A DNA stretch of 64,000 nucleotides. Source: Pseudarthrobacter chlorophenolicus A6 (lineage in GTDB: Bacteria; Actinomycetota; Actinomycetes; Actinomycetales; Micrococcaceae). Position numbers and translations under genes: made by a program. The notes below the pieces were generated by a model. The model saw only the letters and a list, made by a program, of their open reading frames with translations. It was not told the origin of the DNA and ran no database searches. Below are positions 36,739 to 43,831 of the stretch, one piece after another (the first letter of the stretch is position 1; every line of letters starts with the position of its first letter). The stretch is taken from contig NC_011886.1 in NCBI RefSeq assembly GCF_000022025.1, forward strand, positions 1,374,980 through 1,438,979. Reading direction: 5' to 3'.

Positions 36739-36744
36739 GGAGTG

Positions 36745-37650
36745 ATGTGCAGTCCGCAGACCCCCGATGCCTACCGCGAACCCTCAACGGGTGGTTCCCA
36801 GAGTGGCGCAGTGTCCCCGAAACGGGAGTATCCGCCCGCGCCCGAACCGCTGCCTGTACCGGTAATGGATAACCACACGCACCTTGATTTTCCTGACGGC
36901 AAAGGGCCGGTGGGAATAGCTGAAGCCCTGGACGCTGCTGCCGCTGTGGGTGTCCAGGGGGCAGTCCAGGTGGGCTGCGACCTGGAATCGTCGCGGTTTA
37001 CAGTGCAGGCGGTGCAGCAGGATGACCGGTTGCTGGGCGCTGTGGCGCTGCATCCCAATGATGCTCCCGGCTATGCGGACCGCGGCGAGCTCGAAGACGC
37101 ACTGGCCGAGATTGAACAGTTGGCAGCCCACCCGCGCATCCGCGCCATTGGCGAGACAGGCCTCGACTTCTTCCGCACGGAAGGTGAGGGACTGGCCCAT
37201 CAGCGGTACTCATTCCGGCGGCACATCGACATCGCCAAACGGCTGGAGCTGACCCTCCAGATCCACGACCGGGACGCGCACGCCGACGTCGTGCAGGTCC
37301 TGGAAGAAGAGGGCGCTCCGGACAGGGTGGTGTTCCATTGCTTCTCCGGCGACGAGGAGCTTGCCGCCATCTGCAACCGCGAGGGCTGGTACATGTCGTT
37401 CGCCGGGACACTGACCTTCCGGAACGCGGCCAACCTGCGGTCCGCGCTCGCTGTCGCAGACCCGGAACTCGTCCTGGTGGAAACTGACGCTCCGTTCCTC
37501 ACCCCGCATCCCCATCGGGGCCGGCCCAACGCCAGCTACATGGTGCCGTACACCGTCCGTGCCATGGCTGAATTGACAGGCGCGGACCTCGCGGAGTTGT
37601 GCACCCGCATCAGCTCGAATACGGTGCGGGCATACGGATCCTGGAGCTGA
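36745..37650 (+). CDS. tatD: TatD family metal-dependent DNase
   Basis: 301-aa TIM-barrel hydrolase; TatD enzymes have 3'-5' exonuclease activity on DNA. Metal ligands are seen in VMDNHTHLDFP (HxH), GETGLDFFR (Glu), QIHDRDAH (His), VFHCFSGD (His) and ETDAPFLTPHPHRGRPN (Asp). The first ~38 residues (Pro/Ser-rich) precede the barrel. First gene of the conserved tatD-rpf-rsmA-ispE neighbourhood, but a promoter and leader separate it from rpfB. Confidence 0.93.
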   Translation: MCSPQTPDAYREPSTGGSQSGAVSPKREYPPAPEPLPVPVMDNHTHLDFPDGKGPVGIAEALDAAAAVGVQGAVQVGCDLESSRFTVQAVQQDDRLLGAVALHPNDAPGYADRGELEDALAEIEQLAAHPRIRAIGETGLDFFRTEGEGLAHQRYSFRRHIDIAKRLELTLQIHDRDAHADVVQVLEEEGAPDRVVFHCFSGDEELAAICNREGWYMSFAGTLTFRNAANLRSALAVADPELVLVETDAPFLTPHPHRGRPNASYMVPYTVRAMAELTGADLAELCTRISSNTVRAYGSWS

Positions 37651-37699
37651 GGAGTGTCACATTGAGTGACCTTCAAGGCATACGTGGTATGTAAATTTG

Positions 37700-37729
37700 T
37701 TGGCCCGTTTATAACGCTACGGTTACAGT
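37700..37729 (+). promoter_or_regulatory. rpfB promoter
   Basis: TTGGCC (37700-37705), an 18-nt spacer, TACAGT (37724-37729). Predicted transcription start about 37736, giving a leader of about 170 nt. Confidence 0.55.
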
Positions 37730-37735
37730 GGAAAA

Positions 37736-37906
37736 CTATTAGCCGGGGTCGGGGAAGGCCAACGGGTAATTTCGCTTCCTTTCAGCATCTCCTGCCGGGA
37801 CCCTGTCCCGTCCTGGCCGCTGGCGGGAAGCAGGCGGCGCAAAGGTGCCCGGACTGCTGCTCAAAGGCGGTGCCGGGCATTTTATTGCGCAAATCCCCGT
37901 GCCCGG
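37736..37906 (+). ncRNA. rpfB 5' leader, candidate RNA switch
   Basis: About 170 nt between the predicted promoter and the first rpfB start codon, GC-rich and structured, and closing with a strong terminator hairpin before the coding region. An RNA switch controlling rpfB (with ksgA and ispE) has been reported in M. tuberculosis; this leader occupies the same position. Upstream elements such as AGCCGGGGTCGGGGAAGG could be the sensing part. I do not see the 3' signature of c-di-AMP (ydaO) riboswitches, so the class is unknown. Confidence 0.5.
37846..37886 (+). terminator. attenuator hairpin in the rpfB leader
   Basis: TGCCCGG (37846-37852) pairs with CCGGGCA (37873-37879); the stem continues inward as ACTGC/GCGGT (one G-U, one bulged G), giving about 12 bp around the loop TGCTCAAAG. 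TTTTATT follows at 37880-37886. This is one of the few hairpins in the window followed by a real U-tract, and it lies before the start codon. Confidence 0.75.
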
Positions 37907-39100
37907 ATGGACCTAAAGTTACGGGCAATCGTGGTCAAGTTCTTCACATCGGATGGCAAGATCAGCTTTTTCAAGGTTGGAGCCCAGCTGCTGGTGCTTT
38001 GCACCCTGGTAGCAGGGCTCGTAGCCTTCGTCGGCAATAACAAAACCATCACGCTCAACGTTGATGGGAAGGTCTCGTCCGTCCAGACCTTCGGCGGAAC
38101 CGTAGGCCAGGTAGTCAAGAGTGCCAACATCGAACTGAAGCCCGCAGACAGGGTTTCCCCGGCCATCGACGCTTCGGTCCACAACGGGACCGTCATCAAC
38201 GTCAACCAGGCCAAGGAAGTCAAGGTCAGCCTCGACGGAGCAGAGAAGACGGTCAGTACCACCGCGCAGGACGTCGCGGGCCTGGTCACCGAACTCGGCG
38301 TGGCCAGCACCTCATCGCTCTCCGTCCCCAAGGACGCGCAGCTCGCACTCGCCGGCTCGTTCGTGTCCATCTCCACCCCCAAATCGGTCAGCATCGTCGC
38401 CGATGGCAAGGTGAACACCACCACTACCACTGCGGCTACCGTAGGCGACGTGCTTGAGAGCGCCGGGCTGACCATTGGCGCCAACGACCGCACCTCCCAG
38501 CCTGCCAACGCGCACGTCGTCAACAACATGGTGATCAAGGTGTCCCGGGTTGATAACGGACAGACGGCGAAAACCACTGAGGACGTTCCCTTCGAGACGG
38601 TGACCACCGAAAGCGCCGAAATGCTCAAGGGGGAGAAGGAAGTTACCCAGGCAGGCGCCGCCGGCAAGCTGGAGAAGACCTTCAAGCTGGTCCTCGTGGA
38701 CGGCCGTGAAGCCTCCCGCACCCTCGTCTCTGAAGCCGTAGCCGTCCAGCCCGTCGCTGAGAAGGTTACGGTCGGCACCAAGGCAAAGCCCGTTGTCCAG
38801 GCCGCTGCGGCCCCGGCCGCCGGCAGCAACACCGGCGCTGCTGCGCCGGCCATGATGAACGAAGCCATGTGGGACAAGATCGCCCAGTGCGAGTCCACCG
38901 GAAACTGGAGCATCAACAGCGGCAACGGCTACTACGGCGGCCTGCAGTTCGACATCCAGACCTGGATCGGCGCCGGCGGCGGGGCCTACGCCCCCAACGC
39001 AAGCCTGGCCACCAAAGCACAGCAGATCGACATCGCGAACCGCGTTTACGCGCAGCGCGGCCTCCAGCCGTGGGGCTGCGGCTGGGCAGCCAGCAGCTAA
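37907..39100 (+). CDS. rpfB: resuscitation-promoting factor, RpfB type
   Basis: 397-aa secreted or membrane-anchored muralytic enzyme that cleaves peptidoglycan glycan strands and stimulates growth from dormancy. Signal/anchor helix AQLLVLCTLVAGLVAFVG (about 26-43), three DUF348 repeats to ~210 (each with a GTVGQVV- or TVGDVLESAG-type motif), a G5 domain to ~295, an Ala/Pro linker, and the C-terminal lysozyme-like Rpf domain WDKIAQCESTGNWSINSGNG with catalytic Glu329, ending in WGCGWAASS. The start is ATG 37907 or GTG 37931 (VVKFFTSDGK); neither has a strong ribosome binding site. Expression is probably set by the leader attenuator. Confidence 0.95.
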   Translation: MDLKLRAIVVKFFTSDGKISFFKVGAQLLVLCTLVAGLVAFVGNNKTITLNVDGKVSSVQTFGGTVGQVVKSANIELKPADRVSPAIDASVHNGTVINVNQAKEVKVSLDGAEKTVSTTAQDVAGLVTELGVASTSSLSVPKDAQLALAGSFVSISTPKSVSIVADGKVNTTTTTAATVGDVLESAGLTIGANDRTSQPANAHVVNNMVIKVSRVDNGQTAKTTEDVPFETVTTESAEMLKGEKEVTQAGAAGKLEKTFKLVLVDGREASRTLVSEAVAVQPVAEKVTVGTKAKPVVQAAAAPAAGSNTGAAAPAMMNEAMWDKIAQCESTGNWSINSGNGYYGGLQFDIQTWIGAGGGAYAPNASLATKAQQIDIANRVYAQRGLQPWGCGWAASS

Positions 39101-39233: not shown

Positions 39234-40106
39234 GTGACTGAACCCAACCCCGCCGCGCCCGCACCGCTGTTCGGTGCTTCCGATATTCGCCGGCTGGCAG
39301 GGGAGATCGGTGTCAGGCCCACCAAGACCCTGGGCCAGAACTTCGTCATCGACGGCAACACCATCCGCAGGATCGTGGCGGCGGCAGGTGTCGGGGCCGA
39401 TGAGACGGTCCTGGAGGTCGGTCCAGGCCTCGGCTCACTCACGCTGGGCCTGTTGGACGCCGCCGCGGCCGTGGTGGCTGTGGAGATCGATCCCGTCCTC
39501 GCCGCCAAGCTTCCGGCCACTGTGGCTGAATGGCGGCCGGCCGCCGTCGGAAATTTCCACCTCGTCGAGGCTGACGCCATGAAAGTCACGGACCTTCCCG
39601 TGGAACCGACGGCGCTGGTGGCCAACCTGCCTTACAACGTTGCGGTGCCTGTGGTCCTGCACCTCCTGGAGCATTTCCCCAGCCTGCAGCACGGCCTGGT
39701 CATGGTCCAGGACGAGGTAGCCGACCGGCTGGCCGCCGGTCCGGGCTCGAAGACCTATGGCGTTCCATCCGTTAAGTCAGCCTGGTACGGCCAGATGCGC
39801 AAAGCCGGCGTGATCGGCATGAACGTGTTCTGGCCCGCGCCCAAGATCCACAGCGGACTCGTCGCCTTCACCCGGCGCGAACCGCCTGCCACCAGCGCCA
39901 CCCGCCAGCAGGTCTTTGCCGTCATTGATGCTGCCTTCGCCCAGCGGCGCAAGACCCTGCGTGCCGCGCTCAGCGGCTGGGCCGGGGGAGGAGCGGAAGC
40001 CGAACGCTGCCTGGTGGCGGCCGGCGTCGACCCCACCGCGCGCGGTGAGGTCATCGATATCGCGGCGTTCGCCAGGATTGCTGAAGCCAAGGAAGCGGGC
40101 GCATGA
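39234..40106 (+). CDS. rsmA: 16S rRNA (adenine(1518)-N6/adenine(1519)-N6)-dimethyltransferase
   Basis: KsgA-type enzyme dimethylating A1518 and A1519 near the 3' end of 16S rRNA, a late step in 30S maturation. The 290-aa product shows the SAM motif [25 protein letters not shown] at the N-terminus, EADAMKV, the catalytic motif [11 protein letters not shown], and the C-terminal basic domain ([13 protein letters not shown]). The GTG start carries a leaderless-type -10. The stop overlaps the ispE ATG (ATGA). Confidence 0.96.
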
Positions 40107-43759: not shown

Positions 43760-43831
43760 TCCGCTCTGGTGTAACGGCAGCACCCCGGCCTTTGGAGCCG
43801 TGGAGTATAGGTTCGAATCCTATGGGCGGAA
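43760..43831 (+). tRNA. tRNA-Gln (anticodon TTG)
   Basis: Acceptor arms TCCGCTC and GGGCGGA pair over 7 bp (one G-U). The anticodon loop is CTTTGGA with anticodon TTG, and the T-arm is ATAGG-TTCGAAT-CCTAT. 72 nt with discriminator A; the 3' CCA is not encoded. It lies 103 nt before the glmU start and reads CAA codons (and CAG by wobble). Confidence 0.95.

Follow-up and report, generated by a model that had tools for sequence, protein, structure and literature searches.

A conserved leader RNA element ahead of rpfB in the class Actinomycetes, with a putative exchange of pairing partners

The window, the whole 64,000-nucleotide stretch of DNA that was analyzed, belongs to a genome that is of the Pseudarthrobacter/Arthrobacter type, judged from its nearest named relatives. 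The gene order at the locus is tatD (36742-37650), an intergenic leader, rpfB (37931-39100, + strand), ksgA (39234-40106, + strand), and then ispE-like and ABC-F open reading frames (ORFs). The last two were named from reading, and tatD, rpfB, and ksgA were assigned with Pfam (RrnaAD for ksgA) and the ORF list. The rpfB product carries three DUF348 domains, a G5 domain, and a transglycosylase-like domain, and a search of 150 genomes from the window's genus recovered the gene in 149. In genus genomes G005:C34, G127:C19, G096:C41, and G034:C22, the rpfB match contained in-frame stops, which may reflect pseudogenes, sequencing errors, or match overruns. A tRNA gene at 43760-43831 was the sole Rfam match in the window at the gathering score.

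A sequence-only reading of this DNA had described a promoter-like TTGGCC-N18-TACAGT, a GC-rich leader, a hairpin, and TTTTATT ahead of rpfB, and all of these were found where it had placed them. The promoter assigned here (37700-37729, + strand) comprises TTGGCC at 37700-37705, an 18-nt spacer, and the -10 hexamer TACAGT at 37724-37729, and a conserved TATAACGCTACGGTTACAG spans the spacer and the -10 region. In an alignment of 54 leaders fetched from genus genomes, mean column identity was 0.90 at 37700-37724 and 0.97 at 37725-37730. From the spacing, we infer a transcription start at about 37735-37738. A generic scanner called neither this promoter nor the terminator-like hairpin of the leader. 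Loci elsewhere were found with the rule that TANNNT stands 7 to 15 nt ahead of the conserved 5' block described below, and loci failing the rule were anchored by hand. The box TATAACGCTACGGTTACAG at 37709-37731 (TCACGGTTCGGTTACGG in other genera) appears to resemble the direct repeats bound by the response regulator MtrA. MtrA is reported to be a regulator of rpfB in Mycobacterium tuberculosis (PMC6009663, PMC5650626).

The sequence-only reading had rpfB begin at the ATG at 37907-37909 (+ strand), which is probably part of the leader instead. Of the 54 genus leaders, 41 have ATG at 37907, but all 54 have a start codon in frame at 37931 (GTG in 51, ATG in 3). Moreover, at all 191 loci in which both conserved blocks could be anchored, the first NTG at least 26 nt past the GUG of the distal block stood 26 to 32 nt from it, mostly 30 or 32 (search range, 26 to 42 nt). 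Judged from this conservation, the rpfB start is the GTG at 37931 and not the ATG at 37907. Since the start at 37931 is conserved and that at 37907 is not, the leader extends to about 37930. An upstream ORF starting at the distal GTG was also considered and was rejected because its frame, stop, and codons varied in the alignments, as inspected by eye.

Two blocks of the leader stood out in the genus alignment. Mean column identity was 0.92 in a 5' block (37737-37770, + strand), where 22 of 34 columns were invariant, and 0.98 in a distal block around TCCCCGTGCCCGG (37894-37906, + strand; conserved over 37893-37907). For comparison, it was 0.54 in the upstream intergenic DNA, 0.65 in the leader middle (37771-37890), 0.64 in the U-tract, and 0.90 in rpfB itself (37931-37990). 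The 5' block corresponds to a hairpin, P1, with stems 37738-37741/37767-37770, 37743-37745/37763-37765, and 37747-37750/37757-37760 and the loop GGGGAA (37751-37756). Its order of parts is CCGGG, then GU or AU, then the loop, and the distal block follows the complementary order: TCCCCG (37894-37899), complementary to the loop, pairs with 37750-37755; UG follows; and CCCGG (37902-37906) pairs with 37743-37747. Together, these pairings make up a long-range (LR) helix of 5 plus 6 pairs around a 2x2 internal loop, with a predicted duplex energy of -23.3 kcal/mol versus -12.2 kcal/mol for P1. Between the two blocks lie a predicted hairpin, P2 (37774-37831, + strand), which is variable (identity, 0.57, with variation in every column of the genus alignment), and a domain, P3 (37837-37890, + strand), delimited by folding and alignment, closed by GCGCAA (37837-37842)/TTGCGC (37885-37890), and holding a terminator-like hairpin (37846-37879) and U-tract (37880-37886). 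The conserved part of the leader is therefore the P1 block plus the distal block and not the terminator hairpin, and we have little doubt that a conserved RNA element exists here. In seven Micrococcaceae loci outside the genus (L062, L064, L066, L067, L076, L079, and L196), the leader middle has in common the hairpin TTGGACGTTCCGTTCGTACGCCCAA or a close variant, which may be a conserved subdomain of the middle.

The terminator-like hairpin (13 bp with one bulge), set in a GC-rich leader and followed by TTTTATT, is strong. For the segment 37842-37890, the predicted folding energy is -26.1 kcal/mol (z, -3.5), a value matched by 1 of 200 shuffles, and the leader without this piece is ordinary (37738-37843; z, -0.27). 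By a lenient rule (a hairpin with at least five T in eight, at any leader position), a hairpin plus U-tract occurred in 49 of 62 genus leaders compared to 12 of 60 shuffled sequences. The corresponding counts were 9/47 versus 9/60 in other Micrococcaceae, 3/58 versus 2/60 in other families, and 0/18 versus 0/54 in Jiangellaceae. The stem is also kept in the nearest clade, where each of 14 P3 pairs was retained in 26 to 30 of 30 rows and 3 of the 14 were double-changed. These features fit the proposal of the sequence-only reading that the hairpin is a conditional intrinsic terminator, i.e., that the leader is an attenuator. However, the feature is not enriched beyond the genus, the identity of its U-tract is just 0.64, and the remaining 23 genus rows gave no consensus structure for P3 or the terminator. 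Nor was an antiterminator predicted: under equilibrium folding, no conformation opened the hairpin, whose probability was 1.0 in all six prefixes from 37880 onward, so that conditional termination and constitutive partial termination are equally likely. We therefore regard attenuation as a distinctly improbable account of the element. The earlier reading was right that rpfB is preceded by a conserved, structured leader of a regulatory type. Its view of the terminator as the core was not supported, since the terminator is a later layer, enriched in the window's genus only. Its 5' arm contains GTGCCCGGA (37845-37853, + strand), an exact copy of 37899-37907, and it may thus have arisen by duplication of the distal element.

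The pairing between the P1 loop and the distal block was examined across families. In a family-level test (47 of the 191 anchored loci, from 20 families or family-like groups, with the register fixed at the junction), loops formed 3.93 contiguous pairs with their own distal blocks versus 2.11 (sd, 0.33) with swapped ones, a value reached by 0 of 20,000 derangements. The number of pairs within the first six positions was 4.63 versus 3.74, again with 0 of 20,000 family derangements. With the register left free, the duplex energy was -8.13 versus -6.62 for swapped partners (13 of 10,000). Over 152 loci with 92 distinct loop/partner combinations, 495 of 644 pairs were formed, compared to a shuffle mean of 449.5 (sd, 6.6; maximum of 477 in 5,000 shuffles). 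Matched combinations include CGGGGA/UCCCCG in the window, CGAGAC/GUCUCG and CGAGGU/ACCUCG in group f14, CGGGAC/GUCCCG in Nocardioidaceae, CAGAC/GUCUG in L194, GGAGAA/UUCUCC in Blastococcus, and GGGGAGA/UCUCCCC in Streptoalloteichus; the Blastococcus and Streptoalloteichus helices lack their first C-G pair, both sides having changed together. These results indicated that the loop/distal pairing covaries between families. At the level of single loci, the duplex-energy test placed no more than 12 of 47 own partners in the top 10% of cross-family partners, and with the register fixed, 7 of 47 loci (L107, L154, L169, L187, L237, L250, and L272) formed at most two contiguous pairs. The family-level tests are not blind, because the representatives (one to eight for each group) were our choice and some of the anchors were placed by hand. 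They were run after a tree-aware, R-scape-like test, using a locus set to which named loci had been added and registers taken from junction rules. In the tree-aware test itself (123 rows; a single tree derived from the short alignment, without register correction), a predicted loop pair ranked first of all column pairs but was not significant (E = 4).

Covariation of this kind bears on two other explanations. The upstream box and the 5' block stand close together and are both highly conserved, as would be expected if the 5' block were the DNA site of a regulator placed after the promoter and the distal block were part of the translation start, with their complementarity incidental. However, changes in the loop are matched in the distal block across 20 families or family-like groups, and we consider a DNA site highly unlikely. 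The other explanation is that P1 mimics helix 45 of 16S rRNA, through which KsgA would repress its own expression. The loop GGGGAA presumably recalls the helix-45 loop, and ksgA lies downstream in the same gene group, but elsewhere the loop is different (CGAGAC, CGGAAA, CAGAC, GGAGAA, and others) and tracks its distal partner. KsgA autoregulation by such a mimic was rejected because the loop sequence varies with that partner, and we give it next to no credence.

P1 and LR share one 5' strand and are mutually exclusive. P1 found support in two clades. In Micrococcaceae (67 rows; RNAalifold), its inner four pairs alone were recovered, with GC 61/AT 6, TG 64/TA 3, CG 67, and one pair broken in 6 of the 67 rows. 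In Jiangellaceae plus L150 (12 distinct rows), a 12-pair stem was recovered, each pair formed in 9 to 12 rows, with GT/GC and GT/AT changes. By eye, L033 also supports P1, with ATTA/TAAT versus ATCA/TGAT. No usable P1 consensus came from the small alignments of groups f14 (8 rows) and f7/f15 (11 rows). When prefixes of the window's leader were folded, P1 had a probability of 0.81 to 0.99 up to 37888 and 0.96 at 37900, and from 37910 onward P1 fell to 0.0 to 0.06 and LR rose to 0.91 to 1.0. The folding predictions thus show P1 forming first and LR second. The same pattern was predicted in 50 of 62 genus leaders, 21 of 47 other Micrococcaceae leaders, 8 of 18 Jiangellaceae leaders, and 20 of 58 leaders from other families, and the LR arm formed in 3 of 60 sequences whose 3' part had been shuffled. 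In pseudoknot-free folding, LR was not the predicted end state in 3/62, 15/47, 9/18, and 29/58 leaders of these respective groups.

The arm of the LR helix (CCGGG/CCCGG) is nearly invariant and therefore carries little information and is weakly tested. Altered 5' arms changed in step with both partners in L107 and L237 (CCGGA/UCCGG) and in L154 (CCAGG/CCUGG), and in step with the distal partner only in L127. Mismatches were also found, CCGGA standing with CCCGG in L146-L148 and L150 and CCGUG occurring in L042, L047, L048, and L051. Both the middle and the 3' arm of P1 are absent from L049 and L054, in which CCGGG...CCCGG survives as a local hairpin. Together with L050 and L052, which are from the same Micrococcaceae genus, these loci form a shrinking series, from about 147 nt between the blocks to two arms in one hairpin. 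With respect to bistability, then, P1 and the loop/distal pairing are supported, and the arm/distal pairing is backed by few changes, with counterexamples.

On this basis, we lean toward a bistable, cis-acting leader RNA that switches by exchange of partners between P1 and LR. The leader RNA would act in cis and be dedicated to rpfB, and its 5' strand (37743-37755) would have two exclusive partners. Early in transcription, this strand would fold as P1 and present GGGGAA as its loop. After synthesis of the distal block (37894-37906), that block would pair with the P1 loop and take over the 5' arm of P1, giving an 11-bp LR helix by which the entire leader is closed some 25 nt ahead of the start codon. 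A protein, a metabolite, temperature, or the rate of transcription or translation may bias the exchange, which would set how well the rpfB mRNA (perhaps rpfB-ksgA-ispE) is translated or how stable it is; for the Pseudarthrobacter clade, premature termination at the P3 terminator may be a further effect. We infer that the exchange takes place in the cell, in response to a signal, with translation, mRNA stability, or both as its output and termination perhaps added in this clade.

Sequestration of the Shine-Dalgarno (SD) region was considered as a general output, but the mean effect was small and was missing from Jiangellaceae. Openness of the SD region with the distal block locked versus not locked was 0.42 versus 0.29 in the genus, 0.44 versus 0.34 and 0.47 versus 0.37 in the next two groups, and 0.44 versus 0.45 in Jiangellaceae, and loss of any GC-rich partner would yield part of so small an effect. 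A simpler alternative to the exchange is a passive clamp, in which LR (or P1 with a loop pseudoknot) closes the 5' end and slows decay or keeps the ribosome-binding site (RBS) open, with no sensing or switching. Its two ends would be conserved, as observed, and the part between them, unlike an aptamer, differs among loci both in sequence and in length, the distance from the 5' block to the distal block being 51 to 235 nt across loci; LR is also far stabler than P1 by the predicted energies given above. A clamp, however, needs no competing hairpin, and P1 is kept with covarying pairs in two clades. We consider the clamp unlikely, if still a serious alternative to partner exchange.

The element is widespread ahead of rpfB, including in Micrococcaceae, Jiangellaceae, Nocardioidaceae, and Geodermatophilaceae. 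Both blocks could be anchored in 191 of 273 upstream regions: 54/54 in the genus, 42/46 in other Micrococcaceae (L035-L058, L062-L081, L195, and L196), 31/43 at the order level (L106-L130 and L177-L194), 26/46 at the class level (L131-L176), 2/4 in further Jiangellaceae (L213-L216), and 36/80 among named loci (L217-L296; organisms partly repeated). Since the loci are mostly best protein matches, these fractions are not estimates of prevalence. Named carriers include Jiangella, Phytoactinopolyspora, Nocardioides, Kribbella, Blastococcus, Knoellia, and Streptoalloteichus, and from the named carriers group f38 would be Jiangellaceae and group f45 Nocardioidaceae. The 5' block was present but unanchored in at least seven loci (L213, a model match, and L216, L238, L243, L249, L253, and L271); in L141 it was present with a distal block that could not be placed, and L170, which has a GCCGG stretch without a distal block, was excluded from the counts. 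In Streptomyces and some Pseudonocardiaceae, long N-terminal extensions meant that the region read was coding, so these are not clean negatives. By eye, within 260 nt, the element was found in 0 of 11 named Corynebacterium (3), Rhodococcus (1), Gordonia (2), Nocardia (4), and Prescottella (1) regions, where a CGTTAYCGT-type promoter is followed by a different, often short leader. It was likewise not seen in four leaders taken as Mycobacterium (L157-L160).

A covariance model, R1, was built from the -10 region plus P1 with 61 sequences of 95 nonredundant 5' blocks; the 34 omitted were mostly from families with other loops. R1 matched 77 of 296 class genomes at E <= 0.05. At E <= 1.1e-5, all 29 matches in the 296 genomes were followed, 72 to 211 bases downstream and in the same orientation, by an rpfB match; many of these are training loci, and the informative part is that nowhere else in those genomes scored so well. 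Weaker matches were mixed, some before rpfB and others elsewhere. In the window's own genome, the core motif occurred once with no mismatches, and there were 2 two-mismatch matches versus 3 matches in all for a reversed-pattern control. These results showed that the element is tied to rpfB.

Its distribution allows a broader reading, which is tentative and on which we would place less than even confidence: an ancient, signal-sensing RNA family of the class Actinomycetes would control growth entry via rpfB and would have been lost in Mycobacteriales, where other leaders, among them the M. tuberculosis switch, occupy the corresponding position. As part of that reading, the first ~20 nt of the mRNA and the RBS-adjacent block would together constitute a cotranscriptional partner-exchange switch. 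Resuscitation-promoting factors (Rpf) cleave the cell wall and let dormant actinobacteria regrow, and how their dose is controlled is poorly understood beyond the mycobacteria. With a conserved rpfB leader in harmless soil bacteria, the control of Rpf dose would become testable in easy hosts. The M. tuberculosis rpfB switch would then be one among several RNA-based ways of controlling this gene and not an isolated invention of pathogens.

The c-di-AMP (ydaO) riboswitch (RF00379) precedes other rpf genes in actinobacteria and, like the element described here, is a leader RNA. The Rfam 15 scan, a check proposed by the sequence-only reading, found no leader RNA family in the window above its gathering threshold. 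Between 37600 and 38000 and at E values up to 5, two matches scored 12.3 and 9.4 bits versus gathering scores of 37 and 40, and in 11 related loci at E values up to 0.5 there were two matches, both below their gathering scores. RF00379 had no match at 37600-38000 down to E = 5, compared to five c-di-AMP riboswitches elsewhere in the same genome, which served as a positive control and bore out the earlier view that the leader is not of this class. Two of these five c-di-AMP riboswitches lie about 1 kb apart on the same strand (G000:C3:1002097-1002308 [L329] and 1003278-1003459 [L331]). Cobalamin riboswitch models likewise had no match at 37600-38000 down to E = 5. The main text of a survey of 104 candidate RNAs (PMC2864571) did not mention rpfB, resuscitation, tatD, or ksgA, and no description of the element was found in the mostly open-access literature on rpfB RNA switches, riboswitches, and pseudoknots; the element is apparently undescribed so far.

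The nearest known system is the M. tuberculosis rpfB switch, which is likewise part of the 5' leader of an rpfB-ksgA group, with tatD on one side and rpfB on the other. For it too, two exclusive conformations have been proposed with the ligand uncertain; B12 sensing was proposed in a 2024 bioRxiv preprint, as cited in PMC12713380. Compared by description, that switch is centered on an intrinsic terminator, whereas the element here consists of P1 plus the distal block and occurs in many other families. The terminator is not a conserved feature here but is enriched in the window's genus only, and no antiterminated conformation was predicted by equilibrium folding. Schwenk et al. 2018 (PMC6009663) limit the M. 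tuberculosis attenuator to a subset of pathogenic mycobacteria, and the element was seen by eye in 0 of 11 named Mycobacteriales relatives; the suggestion of the sequence-only reading that the M. tuberculosis logic is conserved in this organism was not supported. The M. tuberculosis rpfB Shine-Dalgarno sequence GAGGTCGGGGA, as given in that paper (PMC6009663), resembles GGGGTCGGGGA of the 5' block, a likeness of sequence that could be chance or the remnant of a collapsed leader. Finally, the element is like riboswitch expression platforms that work by alternative pairing of a 5' strand, in that one strand has two partners, the second of them transcribed later. Unlike in those platforms, no conserved aptamer-like core was found, and what is conserved is the switching strand with its two partners.
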